Shown here piece by piece: positions 3,824-38,462 of a stretch of DNA of 41,815 nucleotides (the stretch's first letter is position 1; every line of letters begins with the position of its first letter). The position numbers and the translations under genes were made by a program. The stretch comes from Candidatus Bathyarchaeota archaeon. GTDB lineage: Archaea; Thermoproteota; CALKCG01; B24. The stretch covers positions 1 to 41,815 of the forward strand of contig JAGHAZ010000011.1 in assembly GCA_021161255.1 (NCBI GenBank), written 5' to 3'. The notes beneath the pieces were generated by a model. The model was given only the letters and a program-made list of their open reading frames with translations. It did not search any database and was not told the origin of the DNA.

Positions 3824-4111
3824 ATGATAGAAGTGGGTAGAGTCTGTGTCAAAACCATGGGCCGGGAAGCAGGTAGAAAATGCGTAGTAGTCGATATCAT
3901 AGACGAGAACTTCGCCCTCATAACCGGTCCTAAATCCATCAGCGGTGTCAAGAGGCGTAGGGTGAACATCAAGCACATCGAGCCTACACCTTACAAGCTA
4001 GACATATCCCGAGGTGCAAGCGACGACGAGGTCGTCAAAGCCATAGAGAAGGCTGGTTTAAAAGAAGTATTCGAAAAGCCTCTGAAACCTGAGAGGAGGG
4101 CTGTTTTCTGA
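3824..4111 (+). CDS. rpl14e: Large ribosomal subunit protein eL14
   Basis: This is a 95-residue archaeal/eukaryotic ribosomal protein. The N-terminal KOW-like barrel begins [20 protein letters not shown] and continues with [20 protein letters not shown], both hallmark segments of eL14. A C-terminal helix follows. GGGAGG at 3810-3815 precedes the ATG. The last codons of this gene carry a strong Shine-Dalgarno sequence (GAGGAGGG, 4093-4100) for the next gene, cbf5, which overlaps the stop codon. That links synthesis of a ribosomal protein with the rRNA pseudouridine synthase. Confidence 0.93.
4093..4110 (+). promoter_or_regulatory. Shine-Dalgarno and unusual CTG start for cbf5
   Basis: GAGGAGGG at 4093-4100 lies inside the end of the eL14 gene and matches the anti-Shine-Dalgarno sequence. 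Seven bases later comes CTG (4108-4110), overlapping the eL14 stop. In the cbf5 frame there is an in-frame TGA at 4090 and no ATG, GTG or TTG until well inside the conserved catalytic region. CTG is therefore the best-supported start codon. This is an inference from spacing and the lack of alternatives. Confidence 0.6.
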
Positions 4112-5111
4112 GGTATCAGGCTCCTTGGGAGGTTAAGTGGGATAGGCTTTACAAGTCTTTCGACGAGACCAACGAGGCTTATGGTAAACCGCCTTGGAGA
4201 AGAAGCATCGAGGAGCATCTAAGATATGGGGTCGTAGTGCTCGATAAACCGGCTGGCCCTACAAGCCATGATGTAACGGCTATGGTTAAGAGGATCGCGA
4301 ACGTCGAGAAGGCTGGGCATGGGGGGACCCTAGAGGTTTAAGCCGGGGAGATCCCCCTGCCACAGGGGTCTTACCGATAGCTTTGAACGAGGCGACTAAA
4401 GTCCTTCAGGTTCTACTATCAGGCGGTAAAGAATATGTATGCGTTATGAAGCTTCACGGTGATTTCTCCGAGGAGAGGCTTCGAGAGGTCGTCGAGGAGT
4501 TTCAGGGAGATATCTACCAGAAGCCTCCGCTAAGGTCTTCCGTTAAGCGAGCATTAAGGATTCGACGAATCTACTACATCGATCTCCTAGAGGTTGAAGG
4601 TCGACTTGCTTTGCTTAAAGTCGGCTGTCAAGCTGGCACGTACATCCGGAAGCTCGTACACGATATCGGTGAGGTCCTAGGCTGTGGGGCGCATATGAGG
4701 GAGCTTAGGAGAACTAGGGTCGGGCCGTTCAGCGAGGAAAGAGGTCTAGTCACGCTTAGAACACTTGCCGAGGCCTTCGAAGCATATAGGGCAGGTGACG
4801 AAAAACCCCTCAGACGCGTAGTCCAGCCGGTTGAAGAGGTCCTCGCCTTGACACCTAAGGTATGGATCAGGGATACGGCTGTGGACGCGATATGCCACGG
4901 CGCTGACCTTGCGGTTCCAGGGATAGTGAGCCTGAATTCAGGTATAAAGACCGATACTCTTGTCGGGATCTTCACGCTTAAAGACGAGCTTGTCGCGTTA
5001 GGTAGGGCGTTAATGTCTAGCGAGGAGATTCTAGAGCGGGAAAAAGGCATAGCGGTTAAGACGGAGAGGGTCATCATGAAGCCTGGTACGTATCCTAGGA
5101 TGTGGAAGTAA
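4108..5111 (+). CDS. cbf5: tRNA/rRNA pseudouridine synthase Cbf5, interrupted by a short intron
   Basis: Cbf5 is the catalytic subunit of archaeal H/ACA RNPs and converts uridine to pseudouridine in rRNA. Exon 1 is 4108-4333 and encodes the N-terminal segment with [17 protein letters not shown]. Exon 2 is 4351-5111. Removing bases 4334-4350 restores [13 protein letters not shown], the TruB-family catalytic motif; the intron splits the codon of catalytic Asp76. Exon 2 continues with the [13 protein letters not shown] core, the [16 protein letters not shown] motif and a C-terminal PUA domain (about residues 245-328). The spliced protein would be 328 residues, normal for archaeal Cbf5. Without splicing, translation stops at TAA 4339. 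The CTG start is unusual but well placed. Confidence 0.9.
4334..4350 (+). other. 17-nt archaeal bulge-helix-bulge (BHB) intron in cbf5
   Basis: The 17 bases aggtttaagccggggag interrupt cbf5 and carry an in-frame TAA. The surrounding RNA folds into a canonical BHB: outer helix GGGGGA 4322-4327 with UCCCCC 4352-4357; 3-nt bulge AGA at 4349-4351; 4-bp central helix CCCU 4328-4331 with GGGG 4345-4348; 3-nt bulge AGA at 4332-4334; and a short inner stem GGU/GCC (4335-4337, 4342-4344) with a UUAA loop. Cleavage after the second base of each bulge, the known archaeal tRNA-splicing-endonuclease rule, joins CTA G to AT CCC and restores the frame. Confidence 0.9.
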
Positions 5112-16149: not shown

Positions 16150-17550
16150 GTGGCTCCAAGGGAGGCCTGCGCGGTATTTTCAGCGTACTCTAGGTCGGCC
16201 GATGCGGATGTCTCAGGCCTGATATTCGGCGGTCTCCTAGCCCTACAGCATAGGGGTCAGGAGTCGGCCGGCATGACCGTTTTAAAGAATAATAGGCTTC
16301 TAACGTTCAAGGGAGTGGGGCTTGTGCTTCAAGTATTCGACCGAAATGTCCTGAAGGAGCTGAGGTCGCCTAGAGGCATCGGACATGTAAGGTACTCGAC
16401 CTACGGAGCTTCTGCCTTCAGAAACGCTCAACCCATAGAGTTCAACTCTAAGCCAAGGTTCGCCTTATGCTTCAACGGCACTATAGTGAACTACGACGAA
16501 CTCAGGACGGAGCTTAAAGGTAAGGGCTATCGGTTCGAGACGACTTCTGACTCAGAGGTTATAGGATATCTGGTCTCGGACGGTCTAAAGCACAATTCCA
16601 CGCTTGTCGAGGCCATACGGTATGCGATGGATAAGCTCGAGGGAGCATACTCGGTGACTCTGTTATCCGAAGACGGTTCGATGGCTGTCTTCAGAGACCC
16701 CTACGGGTTCAGACCGCTGTGCATGGGATACATGAAGGACCTAGACGCCTATGTATTCTCATCCGAAACCGCCGGTCTAGACGCGGTAAACGCCTCGTTC
16801 ATCGAAGACGTTCAACCAGGCTCGATAAAGCTCGTGGAAGATGGAAAAGTTAGAAGCATGAAGGTATCAGAAAGTAGACACGCCCACTGCATGTTCGAAT
16901 GGGTCTACTTTGCGCGTCAAGACTCCGCGATAGAAGGCATAGACGTTTTCGAGGTCCGGTGGAGACTTGGCGAAAAGCTTGCTGAGCTCAACCCCGTCGA
17001 CGTAGACTACGTGGTCCCCGTCCCCGAGACCAGTAGGGTCGCGGCCTTAGGGTATTCGGCTAGGTCTGGTATACCGATCATGGAGGGCTTCGGGGTCAAC
17101 AGGTACGCCCTTAGGACGTTCATAATGCCTGCGAACAGAGGCTACTTTGCGAGGCTTAAACTCAACCCTCTCAAAAGGGTTTTGAAAGGTAAGCGTATAG
17201 TGCTCATAGACGATAGCATAGTGAGGGGGACGACGTCGAGAACCATAGTTTCGATGCTTAAGAAAGCAGGTGTAAAGGAGGTTCACCTCAAGATAACCTG
17301 TCCACCTCTGATAGCGCCGTGCTATATGGGTGTGGACTTCCCGACGTTCGAGGAGCTGATCGCCCACGGTAGGAGTGTAGAGAATATCCGAAGGGCCATA
17401 GGTGCCGATAGCTTAACGTATATGACGGTTGAAGGGTTGGTAGAAGCCATAGGCCTCCCTAGGGATGAGTTGTGTCTAGCCTGCTTGACAGGCGTATATC
17501 CCGAGGGTATACGACCCAGGTTTAAGAGTAGAGAGGTGATCAAGAGGTGA
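16150..17550 (+). CDS. purF: Amidophosphoribosyltransferase PurF (active-type paralogue)
   Basis: This enzyme commits PRPP to purine synthesis, making phosphoribosylamine with ammonia from glutamine. It has 466 residues. Cys7 (REACAVFSAY) is the expected N-terminal nucleophile after removal of a six-residue propeptide. The glutaminase domain keeps GHVRYSTYG, FNGTIVNYDEL and SDSEV. The transferase domain has PVPETSRVAALGY, NRYALRTFIMP and the PRPP loop VLIDDSIVRGTT. Four cysteines at 247, 391, 442 and 445 align with the 4Fe-4S ligands of the B. subtilis enzyme. Its stop overlaps the start of a second purF-like gene by 4 bases (GTGA), so the two products are made together. Confidence 0.95.
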   Translation: MAPREACAVFSAYSRSADADVSGLIFGGLLALQHRGQESAGMTVLKNNRLLTFKGVGLVLQVFDRNVLKELRSPRGIGHVRYSTYGASAFRNAQPIEFNSKPRFALCFNGTIVNYDELRTELKGKGYRFETTSDSEVIGYLVSDGLKHNSTLVEAIRYAMDKLEGAYSVTLLSEDGSMAVFRDPYGFRPLCMGYMKDLDAYVFSSETAGLDAVNASFIEDVQPGSIKLVEDGKVRSMKVSESRHAHCMFEWVYFARQDSAIEGIDVFEVRWRLGEKLAELNPVDVDYVVPVPETSRVAALGYSARSGIPIMEGFGVNRYALRTFIMPANRGYFARLKLNPLKRVLKGKRIVLIDDSIVRGTTSRTIVSMLKKAGVKEVHLKITCPPLIAPCYMGVDFPTFEELIAHGRSVENIRRAIGADSLTYMTVEGLVEAIGLPRDELCLACLTGVYPEGIRPRFKSREVIKR

Positions 17551-18821
17551 GCGGTTTAATCGGTATATTCGCCTTCGACGAGCTATGGTCTATAGCCAGG
17601 TTCATATATTACGGGCTTATGGGGCTACAGCATAGGGGTCAGGAGTCGGCCGGCATAACGACCGTCAAAGATGGGAGGTTTTACACAAGAGTCTGTAAGG
17701 GACTTGTCGAGGAAGCGTTTAAGGAGGATACTTTGAAAAGGCTTCCAGGTCATATAGGATGCGGCGGGGTTTCGATGGACCCCGCGGTTTCTCAGCCCAT
17801 AGTCTTAGAGGACCGTGGCAAAAGCTTGGCGTTAACCTTCTCAGGAGGGCTTCTAGAAGGTGATTTGAAAGACTTCGGGTTAGCACTTCTCAGAGAGCTC
17901 TCTAAAAGCGACCCGGAGCAGGCGGCTTTGACCGTTATGGAGCGTTTCAAGGGTGGATACAGCTTCCTAGCCTTGACGAACGACGGCCACATCGTAGCCG
18001 GTAGAGACCCGATGGGTGTAAAGCCTCTATGCGTAGGTGGGTTAGGCTTCGACTTGGCGGTTTTCGCATCAGAGTCGTCGGCCCTAGACGTGGTCGGAGC
18101 CGACCTATCTAGAGAGGTGGAACCGGGCGAGGTCATGTCCGTTGAGATGTTCAGCATAAAAAGGGCTTCTACAGGCTATAGTAGACGCGCCTACTGTAGC
18201 TTCGAATACGTATACTACGCCAGACCAGACTCTGTAATGAACGGTATCCATGTGTATGAGGTGAGGAGACGGATAGGCCTATTGCTCGCCAAGGAGAACC
18301 CGGTCGAAGCCGATGTCGTCATAGGGGTTCCTGAAACCGCTATACCCTTCGCGATGGCTTATTCACAGGCCACAGGCATACCTGTCGAGATGGGCTTCAT
18401 GAGGACCGGTAGGTCCGTTAGAACGGCTATAAAACCCACCCAGTTCGAGAGGCTCGTAGGCGTCCAGCTTAAGCTTAACCCGATCAGAGCCGCGGTTAAG
18501 GGTAAAAGGGTCGTGCTCATAGACGACAGCGTAGTGAGGGGAACGACTTTGAGGAACACCGTGTATCTTCTAAGGAAGAGAGGGGCTAAAGAGGTTCACG
18601 TCAGGATCGGAAGCCCCGCCATCGTCGCCAGATGCCCCTACGGCACGGCCGTACCTCCCGAGGACGAGCTTATAGGTAGGGCTTTAAAGCCAGACGAGAT
18701 AGCCCAGGTCATAGGCGCCGACAGCTTCAGCTACCTCAGCGTAGACGGTTTAACAGAGGCCATAGGCCTTTCCAAGAACAGCCTATGCCTAGGATGCTTC
18801 ACGGGAGAATATCCGGTCTAA
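17547..18821 (+). CDS. PurF paralogue with inactivated glutaminase domain
   Basis: This 424-residue homologue of PurF starts at GTG 17547, overlapping the upstream purF stop. The N-terminus reads MSGLIGIFAFDEL, with Ser where the catalytic Cys should be. GHVRYST becomes GCGGVSM, FNGTIVN becomes FSGGLLE, and the SDSEV segment is gone, so glutamine binding and hydrolysis should be lost. The transferase loop VLIDDSVVRGTT is intact, and four cysteines (217, 363, 414, 417) match the 4Fe-4S ligands. The flexible-loop segment NRYALRTFIMP is altered to RTGRSVRTAIKP. It may be a regulatory or structural subunit of a hetero-oligomeric PurF, or an ammonia-dependent transferase. Role inferred. Confidence 0.88.
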   Translation: MSGLIGIFAFDELWSIARFIYYGLMGLQHRGQESAGITTVKDGRFYTRVCKGLVEEAFKEDTLKRLPGHIGCGGVSMDPAVSQPIVLEDRGKSLALTFSGGLLEGDLKDFGLALLRELSKSDPEQAALTVMERFKGGYSFLALTNDGHIVAGRDPMGVKPLCVGGLGFDLAVFASESSALDVVGADLSREVEPGEVMSVEMFSIKRASTGYSRRAYCSFEYVYYARPDSVMNGIHVYEVRRRIGLLLAKENPVEADVVIGVPETAIPFAMAYSQATGIPVEMGFMRTGRSVRTAIKPTQFERLVGVQLKLNPIRAAVKGKRVVLIDDSVVRGTTLRNTVYLLRKRGAKEVHVRIGSPAIVARCPYGTAVPPEDELIGRALKPDEIAQVIGADSFSYLSVDGLTEAIGLSKNSLCLGCFTGEYPV

Positions 18822-35096: not shown

Positions 35097-36212
35097 TTAA
35101 ACGGCTTTAAACTTCTCCCACCATTCTTCATACCGCCTAATGTTCTCTCTCGACACGCTGGGTTTCCTGCTCCTGAGTAACTCTAAGAAATCGCTCATCG
35201 TGATCGCTCTTACCTCTCCACCGTTTCTCTCAAAGTATTCTCTAACAACCCTGACCTGGGCCTCCTGAGCTATGTCCCTGATATCGCTTCCCGTATATCC
35301 CTCTGTCAGCCTCGCAAGCTCCTCGAAGTCGACATCTTTACTGACCTTGAGGTTCCTACAGTATATTTTAAAGAGTTCAAGCCTGGCTCTGAAATCCGGA
35401 GGAGGTATATATATCCTCCTCTGAAATCTCCTTATGAAAGGTTCGTCTAGGTTCCACGGCTTGTTCGTAGCACCTATGACGTAAACGTAGAGATTTTTAC
35501 CCTTATCCTGAAGTCCATCCATCTCTTTAAGAAGCTGGTTTCTAGCCCTGACCTCTCCACCTACCTCGTGGCTTCTAACACCAACCAATGAGTCTATCTC
35601 GTCTATAAATATGATCGCAGGTTTACCTTCGGTCGATAACTCTCTTGCATTCTCGAAGAGGGCTGCGACGTTTTTCTCCGATTCACCGAGCCACTTCGAC
35701 ATGATAGTGGCGGAATCTACGTAGAAGAAATATGCGTCGACCTCGTTAGCCACAGCGGCGGCTAGCATGGTTTTACCGCATCCTGGTGGGCCGAAGAACA
35801 ATATGCCTCTGGGCCATCCAAGCGGAAATAGGTCTGGCCTCTTGACAGGATATACGATCGCCTCTCTTATGGCCCTCTTGGCGTCCTCTAGGTTCGCTAT
35901 GTCTTCCCACTTTACGTTAGGCCTATCCTTTAACGGAGAGCTTGTCTTCTTAAGGCTGGGGAGGCTTGTTCCCGAGGTAGCGCTTTCGAGACTTGGGTTT
36001 TGAAGCTCCTTAACTCTTCTAAGATATGCCTCGGCTTTTTCGGCGTAAACCCGTGACTGGGGAGACTTGGGATATAGCGAACAAACAGTCAGTAGGATCT
36101 CAGCTGCTCTCTGATACTTGGCTGCCGCTAACCTAGCGGCTCCCTGTTTATCAAGCCTAATGGCGTCTAAGGCATTTTTCTCAGCCATCCTTATGAGCTC
36201 CTCGTACGCCAT
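35097..36212 (-). CDS. cdvC: CdvC, Vps4-like AAA ATPase with MIT domain
   Basis: CdvC remodels and disassembles ESCRT-III filaments during archaeal cell division. The protein has 371 residues. Residues 1-75 are an MIT three-helix domain (YEELIRMAEKNALDAIRLDK), which docks to MIM motifs of CdvB. Residues 100-330 are the AAA domain: Walker A FGPPGCGKTM, Walker B IIFIDEID, sensor GATNKPWNLD and arginine finger RRFQRR. The C-terminal segment ending ENIRRYEEWWEKFKAV is the typical Vps4 helix. Start is ATG 36212 with GGAGGCG upstream, 14 bases after the cdvB stop. It is the fourth gene of the Cdv operon. Confidence 0.95.
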   Translation of the reverse strand: MAYEELIRMAEKNALDAIRLDKQGAARLAAAKYQRAAEILLTVCSLYPKSPQSRVYAEKAEAYLRRVKELQNPSLESATSGTSLPSLKKTSSPLKDRPNVKWEDIANLEDAKRAIREAIVYPVKRPDLFPLGWPRGILFFGPPGCGKTMLAAAVANEVDAYFFYVDSATIMSKWLGESEKNVAALFENARELSTEGKPAIIFIDEIDSLVGVRSHEVGGEVRARNQLLKEMDGLQDKGKNLYVYVIGATNKPWNLDEPFIRRFQRRIYIPPPDFRARLELFKIYCRNLKVSKDVDFEELARLTEGYTGSDIRDIAQEAQVRVVREYFERNGGEVRAITMSDFLELLRSRKPSVSRENIRRYEEWWEKFKAV

Positions 36213-36226
36213 ACGCCTCCCCGTCG

Positions 36227-37060
36227 TTACACTATCCTTATCCTACCCTTCTCCTTCAGCCTGTCGAGGGCCTTTTTAACTTCCTCCGGGCTTAGCTTAA
36301 GCTCTAAGGCACATTTTCTTACGCTTATTCTACCCTGGTTTTTCACTATGTAGTTGAAGACTTCCTCATCGATGTTTCTAACAGTTAGGCTTACCGGCCT
36401 AGCCACTACTACGGGTGAAGGGGTTACGGTTATGTTAAGCGTGCCCTCAGCTAAGGGCTCCGCTATCTTAGGAAGCTCTGGGAACCTCTCCCGTATCTTC
36501 TGCTCAGCTATTACCGACGCTTCCTCCATTATACGCTTAGCCTCGTTGCTCAAAGCCTGCGGCGTCTCGACGCCTTCAGGTATACCTGTCTCCAGAACGG
36601 TCTGATTCAGAAGCCTATGAACCCTATCGAGCTCGCTAGAGACCTCAGGCATGATCCCGCTCAGCCTCTTACCTACCTCTCTGACTATACCTAATACCGG
36701 GGTCAGCTGGTTCATTATGTCGCCGAACTCTTTGACCGTTTCAAGCCTGAGGATAACTCTCTCAAGGCTTAGCTGAGCGCTTATGACGAGTTTAGCCATC
36801 TTCCTGATCTCGGCGCACTCGTTCGCGTAAAGTATAGCGTGGGCTACATCGTTAGATAAGTGAGCTCCGATGCACCTCTCGAAAACCTGCCGGTCTCTCC
36901 TCTGAAGCTTGTTTAGCGTATGCTCAAGCTTATCCCTCTGAACCTGGAGGCTGTAAATGGCTTTAACGATCCTTTCCTTCAAAGGTTTATCGGAGATCTT
37001 AAGCTTCTTCTCGATCCTTCTCCAGATGCCTCGGTCCTCGTTAGACCACCTTATTCTCAA
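36227..37060 (-). CDS. cdvB: CdvB, ESCRT-III protein with C-terminal winged helix
   Basis: CdvB forms the contractile division filaments at mid-cell. The protein has 277 residues. Residues 25-200 are the ESCRT-III helical core, with FERCIGAHLSNDVAHAILYA, ECAEIRKMAKLVISAQLSLE and RVILRLETVKEFGD. The linker carries ERFPELPKI, a MIM2-like motif for CdvC's MIT domain. The C-terminus (about 230-277) is a winged helix ending ALDRLKEKGRIRIV, which in Sulfolobus binds the CdvA C-terminal peptide. Start is TTG 37060. It lies between cdvA and cdvC and shares its core with the upstream paralogue. Confidence 0.93.
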   Translation of the reverse strand: MRIRWSNEDRGIWRRIEKKLKISDKPLKERIVKAIYSLQVQRDKLEHTLNKLQRRDRQVFERCIGAHLSNDVAHAILYANECAEIRKMAKLVISAQLSLERVILRLETVKEFGDIMNQLTPVLGIVREVGKRLSGIMPEVSSELDRVHRLLNQTVLETGIPEGVETPQALSNEAKRIMEEASVIAEQKIRERFPELPKIAEPLAEGTLNITVTPSPVVVARPVSLTVRNIDEEVFNYIVKNQGRISVRKCALELKLSPEEVKKALDRLKEKGRIRIV

Positions 37061-37080
37061 AGAAAACCCTCCTTTTGAAG

Positions 37081-37860
37081 TCAGTCCTCAACCTTAACGT
37101 CTATGGGGGGGCTCTCCTTATTCTTATCACCCAAATCCTCTTTCCTCGACTCTTCCTCGATTGATGGTTTTGAGATCCTGGGTTCTGGCTTTACCTCGAC
37201 TTTAGGCGGTTTCGGAAGTACCGTCTTGATGTCCTTTCTCAGAGAGGATGGTTTAAAATCAAGTTTCGAAAGCCTGTTTATCGTATTCTCCAGCTCCTCC
37301 TTCTCTGTGAAGGCTTTATTCAACCCGTCCTCTACTATCGATATGGCTTCTTTGAAGCTATCCTCCTCGATCTCGCCTGTAGCCCTCTGCATCTTAAGGC
37401 TTGTCCTGAACATCTGAAGCTCTCTGATCTGGCTGTTTAACTTGCCTATACGGCCTTTAAGCCTGTTTATCAACCTGTCCCTTCTCTCCCTAAGCTCTCT
37501 AAATGAGGCTTCATGAATCTTCTTAAACTCTTCATAGGTTTCACCAGGTATCTCTCCCATCCTGAAGAGGTCGTCCAAGGCCTGAATACGCTTAATGGCT
37601 AGGTCTAAAGCCTTCGCTATCTCCGTGGACTCTAGCTCCCATGGATAAAGGTATATCAGCGTACCCGCCTCTATCATCAGCTGCTTGCTGGGGCATCTCA
37701 CGAACTCTCCGTTTCCGAACTCTATCTCGACGTCGGTGACGTTCTGGTTTACATCGGTTATCAACCCCACGACCCTGCCAAGAGGTCTCCCATATCCGTC
37801 TACGACGTGTTTACCCAAAAACTTCTTAAACCCTTCAAACTCAAGACCCATATTTCTCAC
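37081..37860 (-). CDS. cdvA: CdvA, PRC-barrel division protein
   Basis: CdvA is the membrane-associated recruiter of ESCRT-III in Cdv-dividing archaea. The 259-residue protein has an N-terminal PRC-barrel (about 10-80; GKHVVDGYGRPLGRVVGLIT and EFGNGEFVRCPSKQL), a long coiled coil (about 85-205), and a Pro/Glu/Lys-rich tail with PKPPKVEVKPEP, ending SPPIDVKVED. That terminal hydrophobic segment is where Sulfolobus CdvA carries the E3B peptide that pairs with the CdvB winged helix. The ATG at 37860 overlaps the stop of the upstream ESCRT-III gene (ATGA), so the two are translationally coupled; ATG 37851 is the alternative. Confidence 0.9.
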   Translation of the reverse strand: MRNMGLEFEGFKKFLGKHVVDGYGRPLGRVVGLITDVNQNVTDVEIEFGNGEFVRCPSKQLMIEAGTLIYLYPWELESTEIAKALDLAIKRIQALDDLFRMGEIPGETYEEFKKIHEASFRELRERRDRLINRLKGRIGKLNSQIRELQMFRTSLKMQRATGEIEEDSFKEAISIVEDGLNKAFTEKEELENTINRLSKLDFKPSSLRKDIKTVLPKPPKVEVKPEPRISKPSIEEESRKEDLGDKNKESPPIDVKVED

Positions 37861-38462
37861 CTCCTAACATGTTCCGATTCTGAAGAGGGAAGTTCGGGAA
37901 GCCGTTCTTTGATCCTTTGCTCAGCTAGACTGGCGGCTTCGGCGAGTATCTTGCGTGCCTCTGAGTTCACGGGCTCCAGCTGCCATTTATGACCCGTGGC
38001 CTCCCCTGCCTCGACGACTATCTTACTAAGCTCGTCTCCTATCTGACCCAGCTCATAGCTGACCTCAGGAATTATCCCTCCAAGCTGATCCTTCAAAGCC
38101 GATATGACACCGGCAACGGGTCCCATAACCGTTATGACGTCACCGAACTCTTCAACGGTCTCAAGCCTTAGAAGAACTTGTTCAAGGGCTAACCTGCTCT
38201 TCAATAGGAGTTTCGAGATCTTCCTAACCTCAGCGCACTCGTTCGCATACAGGGAGGCCCGGGCCTCGTCACCCATGGCTTGAGCCGCAACGCACTTCTC
38301 GAAGAGCTGTTTCTCATGCTGATTCATCCTCATGGCCGCCGTTTCAAGCCTACTCAGCTGGCTCTTAAGTCTGTAAATAGCCTCGTCTATCCTTTCTTTA
38401 AGCGGTCTCTGTCTTCTGATTAAGCCGGCCGGTCTATCCCAGCTTTTAAGCTTTTTACCCAT
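37857..38462 (-). CDS. Second ESCRT-III (CdvB paralogue) without winged helix
   Basis: This 201-residue ESCRT-III protein is the first gene of the Cdv operon. Its core matches CdvB (FEKCVAAQAMGDEARASLYA, ECAEVRKISKLLLKSRLALE, VLLRLETVEEFGDV). It keeps the MIM2-like KERLPELPSS near the end and then stops, lacking the C-terminal winged helix. It should therefore be able to engage CdvC but not the CdvA peptide. It resembles the short CdvB1/B2-type paralogues of Sulfolobus, which are encoded away from cdvABC. Start is ATG 38462 with GAGGTG just upstream. Confidence 0.9.
   Translation of the reverse strand: MGKKLKSWDRPAGLIRRQRPLKERIDEAIYRLKSQLSRLETAAMRMNQHEKQLFEKCVAAQAMGDEARASLYANECAEVRKISKLLLKSRLALEQVLLRLETVEEFGDVITVMGPVAGVISALKDQLGGIIPEVSYELGQIGDELSKIVVEAGEATGHKWQLEPVNSEARKILAEAASLAEQRIKERLPELPSSESEHVRR

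Follow-up and report, generated by a model that had tools for sequence, protein, structure and literature searches.

Interruption of the cbf5 reading frame

The window, meaning the whole 41,815-nt stretch of DNA analysed here, which comes from a deep-branching archaeon, carries on its + strand a cbf5 gene, encoding the archaeal dyskerin-type pseudouridine synthase Cbf5, with genes for L34e, CMK and L14e lying upstream. The 5' part of the cbf5 frame is open from position 4093, while the remainder lies in a different frame as far as 5111, and the GGTLDPxATG motif is interrupted where the frame runs GAG GTT TAA, with the stop at 4339–4341, as the original prediction had read it. Removal of 17 nt (AGGTTTAAGCCGGGGAG, 4334–4350) gave a single open frame through 5111, and the resulting full-length Cbf5 could be matched from end to end with solved archaeal Cbf5 (E=7.9e-120), bearing out the proposal that this removal restores the motif. 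By frame and homology, exon 1 (4108–4333, from a probable CTG start) would encode the N-terminal part as far as the first base of the catalytic Asp codon, and exon 2 (4351–5111) the rest of that codon and the catalytic and PUA domains. Mechanical ORF calling returned 4383–5111 only, which is the truncated Cbf5 that had been expected of gene callers, and a search of the genome for a second full-length cbf5 match found none.

Since AGA stands at either end of the intron, four deletion phases (4332–4348 to 4335–4351) all yield one and the same product. The cleavage rule for bulge-helix-bulge (BHB) structures, a cut between bulge residues 2 and 3 (PMC2738675), singles out 4334–4350 among them, and cuts at 4333/4334 and 4350/4351 rebuild the Asp codon of GGTLDP as G|AT, with its first and second bases separated. 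Both the host gene and this position are those of the archaeal cbf5 BHB intron, and comparison with the known crenarchaeal introns (PMC2738675), which had been recommended as a check, placed the insertion at the same point between bases 1 and 2.

With regard to the start of the gene, no ATG, GTG or TTG precedes the cbf5 N-terminus, and a CTG at 4108 overlaps the TGA of L14e (CTGA, 4108–4111). Two relatives of the same family (L003 and L004) have TTG in its place, which suggests CTG at 4108 as the start codon. Two other cbf5 genes of the same order (L009 and L011) have no canonical start anywhere from the upstream stop to the conserved N-terminus.

Predicted structure of the intron region

Folding of the intron region gave a minimum free energy (MFE) of -25.6 kcal/mol, with a z of -2.3 against shuffles, which is modest when taken alone. 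The fold contains two 3-nt AGA bulges (4332–4334 and 4349–4351) on opposite strands and 4 bp apart, in which the predicted 5' and 3' cuts fall. Between them lies a 4-bp central helix, formed by CCCU of exon 1 (4328–4331) and GGGG of the intron (4345–4348) with one U-G pair, and within this an inner hairpin (4335–4344) with a 3-bp stem, GGU/GCC, and a UUAA loop. The MFE structure has GGGGGG paired in the outer helix and a single A left out of it, one base off the strict BHB register; that register, GGGGGA (4322–4327) with UCCCCC (4352–4357), also given by the pair table, is a 6-bp alternative pairing of the same strands. The earlier description of a textbook hBHBh' structure thus stands for the AGA bulges, the 4-bp centre and the 3-bp inner stem, while its 6-bp outer register is an alternative to the MFE. 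A covariance model, which cleanly separates intron-bearing from intronless cbf5, found one match in the window, at the intron (68.9 bits, E=5.7e-13), with a runner-up of 8.8 bits.

Introns at the same codon in related genomes

A separate assembly of the same genus (LUCB01, Bathyarchaeota archaeon B24) carries the identical 17-nt intron, and its Cbf5 exon 2 is 99% identical. In the search set the window's class comprises seven genomes of one order, and in the other five the Asp codon is split by introns of 16, 16, 33, 34 and 76 nt. The idea that related genomes might expose the 17 bases as a sequencing artefact is therefore contradicted. Among relatives in general, intron lengths run from 14 to 76 nt and fall in all three classes modulo 3, and read-through is blocked by all 72 distinct introns, those of a length divisible by 3 having an in-frame stop in 14 cases out of 14. 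Published cbf5 introns span 16–44 nt, the 16-nt example being that of Desulfurococcus mobilis (PMC2738675). The L003 intron is likewise 16 nt long, and two loci (L021 and L026) have 14-nt introns, below the published minimum of 16, so 17 nt is short but is not the minimum.

Exon codons beside the intron show a bias that the BHB structure explains. The third base of the Leu codon, which lies in the bulge, is A at 56 of 63 distinct intron-bearing loci compared with 13 of 56 intronless ones, and the third base of the Gly codon, which pairs with a C of the Pro codon, is G at 42 of 63 compared with 10 of 56. In an alignment of 49 sequences 107 cells were double-changed, where shuffles averaged 32.8, and the covariation score was 0.459 against 0.194 (equalled in 0 of 500 shuffles), although shuffle controls overstate this significance because related sequences are not statistically independent. 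When the pairing was slid by 1–3 columns the score fell to 0.07–0.16, and in the same 49 sequences the central helix was 98% paired, one of its pairs occurring as CG, UA or AU. Judged from these patterns, the BHB structure at the cbf5 site is under selection.

Candidate splicing enzymes and alternative readings of the insertion

Two EndA-type genes are present in the genome. EndA alpha (186 aa) keeps Tyr, His and Lys at the presumed catalytic positions and matches the catalytic chain of a solved EndA, 3p1z_B (E=1.6e-44), a structure from Aeropyrum pernix, one of the species in which splicing of cbf5 was demonstrated earliest. EndA beta (223 aa), the second subunit, is without the His and is likely structural, so that at the gene level the genome encodes both subunits of a heteromeric EndA. 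A full-length RtcB gene lies ~3 kb from the EndA beta gene. In the mechanism we propose, exon 1, intron and exon 2 of the cbf5 transcript would fold together into a BHB structure, in whose AGA bulges the tRNA-splicing endonuclease (EndA alpha and beta) would make its two cuts, and the RNA ligase RtcB would join the exons and so rebuild the catalytic Asp codon. An unspliced message would give only a truncated protein from which the catalytic Asp is missing, and for this reason the sole recognisable cbf5 copy would depend on splicing.

The same-site introns, covariation, codon bias and the EndA alpha, EndA beta and RtcB genes all support the original prediction of a BHB intron for the tRNA endonuclease, and we consider it almost certain that bases 4334–4350 are a BHB-type pre-mRNA intron of cbf5, removed by EndA, with the exons joined by RtcB. 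From this we infer that EndA and RtcB cleave and ligate the cbf5 transcript in the cell. Were the 17 bases instead to stay in the mRNA and be skipped by the ribosome, through translational bypassing or frameshifting, a stable hairpin with AGA repeats at both ends would recall take-off and landing repeats. However, the inserts of relatives, at 14–76 nt and in every class modulo 3, show no constrained length or frame, what is conserved is a 3-4-3 bulge-helix-bulge geometry, in which exon and intron bases compensate for each other's changes, and cDNA of the equivalent introns of Aeropyrum and Sulfolobus has shown them to be spliced from the RNA at the same codon (PMC2738675), all of which makes a translational explanation very improbable. 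We give still less credence to a cbf5 pseudogene or a sequencing or assembly error: the truncated protein returned by ORF calling speaks for them, but both exons are conserved, the same bases recur in the separate B24 assembly, relatives have differing introns at this codon, and the genome yielded no further full-length cbf5. Group I and group II introns are ruled out by size, 17 nt against a catalytic core of hundreds of nt, and Rfam gave nothing at gathering score anywhere in the window.

Distribution across archaea

A structure-based search of related genomes with the covariance model, as had been suggested, found the same BHB well beyond the window's order. Of the 398 Thermoproteota genomes searched, 216 gave a match at E<=0.001, but only ~182 of these do so at E<=3e-8; the other 34, at E>=7.8e-6, sit in the range of known intronless loci and were not counted as intron-bearing. 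By a hand count of rows, the ~182 genomes are spread over 49 of 66 families. In Asgard archaea the intron was found in 16 of 228 genomes at E<=3.5e-10 (next best 5e-6), or in 14 when two doubtful genomes, G399 and G570, each also with an intronless copy, are dropped. The G399 locus (L052, contig C57, Thorarchaeota OWC3) was rejected as bin contamination, because this genome has its own intronless cbf5 on a different contig and L052 groups among Bathyarchaeota, and G570, with two cbf5 copies, is a doubtful carrier. The intron was absent from every named locus of groups other than Thermoproteota, Bathyarchaeota and Asgard, among them Hadesarchaea, Hydrothermarchaeota and Methanoperedenaceae.

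Asgard contigs with the intron reach 1.11 Mb (G477) and 443 kb (G579) and have the order SecY, L34e/CMK, cbf5, similar to the window; profilin, used as an Asgard marker, was found in 2 of 14 Asgard genomes and was uninformative. Several Asgard lineages use an alternative Thr codon (ACA), and their introns carry the base that compensates for it. Asgard introns of 29–41 nt at the identical codon, with central-helix compensation, occur in G398, G400, G475–G481, G562, G568 and G578–G580 (loci L073, L093, L176, L178–L189 and L238). The type of EndA was considered as an explanation for intron presence and rejected, since Asgard genomes with and without the intron mostly both have two EndA genes.

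The intron had been described in Desulfurococcales and Sulfolobales only, and as absent from Thermoproteales, Cenarchaeum, Nitrosopumilus and Korarchaeum (Yokobori 2009, PMC2738675), and it is still termed crenarchaeal in a review of 2016 and a paper of 2020. The open-access literature that we searched held no report beyond Desulfurococcales and Sulfolobales, a scope that does not establish priority. The original prediction was thus right that cbf5 introns are known in Crenarchaeota (PMC2738675), but this frame is too narrow: the host is Bathyarchaeota-type, and the intron is common in Thermoproteota and also occurs in some Asgard archaea. The distribution suggests that the annotation of many archaeal genomes wrongly shows cbf5 as truncated.

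Relation to known introns and origin

The window intron shares its gene, Asp-codon site and cut between bulge residues 2 and 3 with the crenarchaeal cbf5 BHB intron (Watanabe 2002; Yokobori 2009, PMC2738675), and the two are alike in size and in having heteromeric EndA genes in the genome, but the host here is Bathyarchaeota-type and outside Desulfurococcales and Sulfolobales. Its hBHBh' is near-canonical, whereas the newly predicted crenarchaeal ones are mostly unconventional (PMC2738675). Archaeal tRNA and rRNA BHB introns spliced by EndA have the same motif and presumably the same enzymes, whereas the window intron sits in an mRNA and splits a catalytic codon. The BHB intron of Haloferax HVO_1309 (PMC7714728) also lies in an mRNA and is EndA-processed, as we predict for cbf5, but it occupies the untranslated 5' leader rather than a coding frame. 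The window intron corresponds in site and in kind to the one already known from crenarchaeal cbf5, an intron that is spread much wider than had been described and is possibly older.

A quick Cbf5 tree of 124 rows, with many weak branches and no inferred root, placed the window's order as a clade within a large Bathyarchaeota-dominated group, and Asgard intron carriers, the contaminant L052 excepted, in several places outside it. Transfer of a crenarchaeal cbf5 into the window genome is rejected, as the window's order groups with Bathyarchaeota Cbf5 and not with Thermoproteia, and the cbf5 of the window has come down by vertical inheritance in a Bathyarchaeota-type lineage. This tree requires at least 14 changes in the presence of the intron, at least eight of them forced by starred branches, so that a single old intron lost many times and several separate gains at the same site are both possible. 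The same changes, the intronless lineages mixed in between carriers, and intron interiors that cannot be aligned among relatives argue for introns that are spliced but were gained independently in Bathyarchaeota, Thermoproteia and Asgard at a favoured site, or were transferred, a rival account of origin rather than of mechanism. Against this, phase and site are identical everywhere and the BHB geometry is common to all, host Cbf5 clades mostly track organism groups, and the window and Asgard contigs are alike in gene order; we regard separate gains or transfer as quite possible, if short of an even chance. Tentatively, the intron may instead date to the common ancestor of Thermoproteota (TACK) and Asgard, at one codon and with many losses, though we would sooner doubt this than assert it. 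If true, it would be the oldest traceable intron of any archaeal protein-coding gene, where this best-known archaeal coding-sequence intron had been placed in the ancestor of Desulfurococcales and Sulfolobales. The wider distribution reopens the question of the time and manner in which protein-coding introns originated in the archaeal lines nearest eukaryotes.

Other genes in the window

Inspection of translations elsewhere in the window revealed two adjacent and overlapping purF-like (amidophosphoribosyltransferase) genes within a purine biosynthesis cluster (16150–18821), and a Vps4/CdvC-like ATPase gene beside two CdvB-like ESCRT-III genes and a CdvA-like gene (35097–38462).
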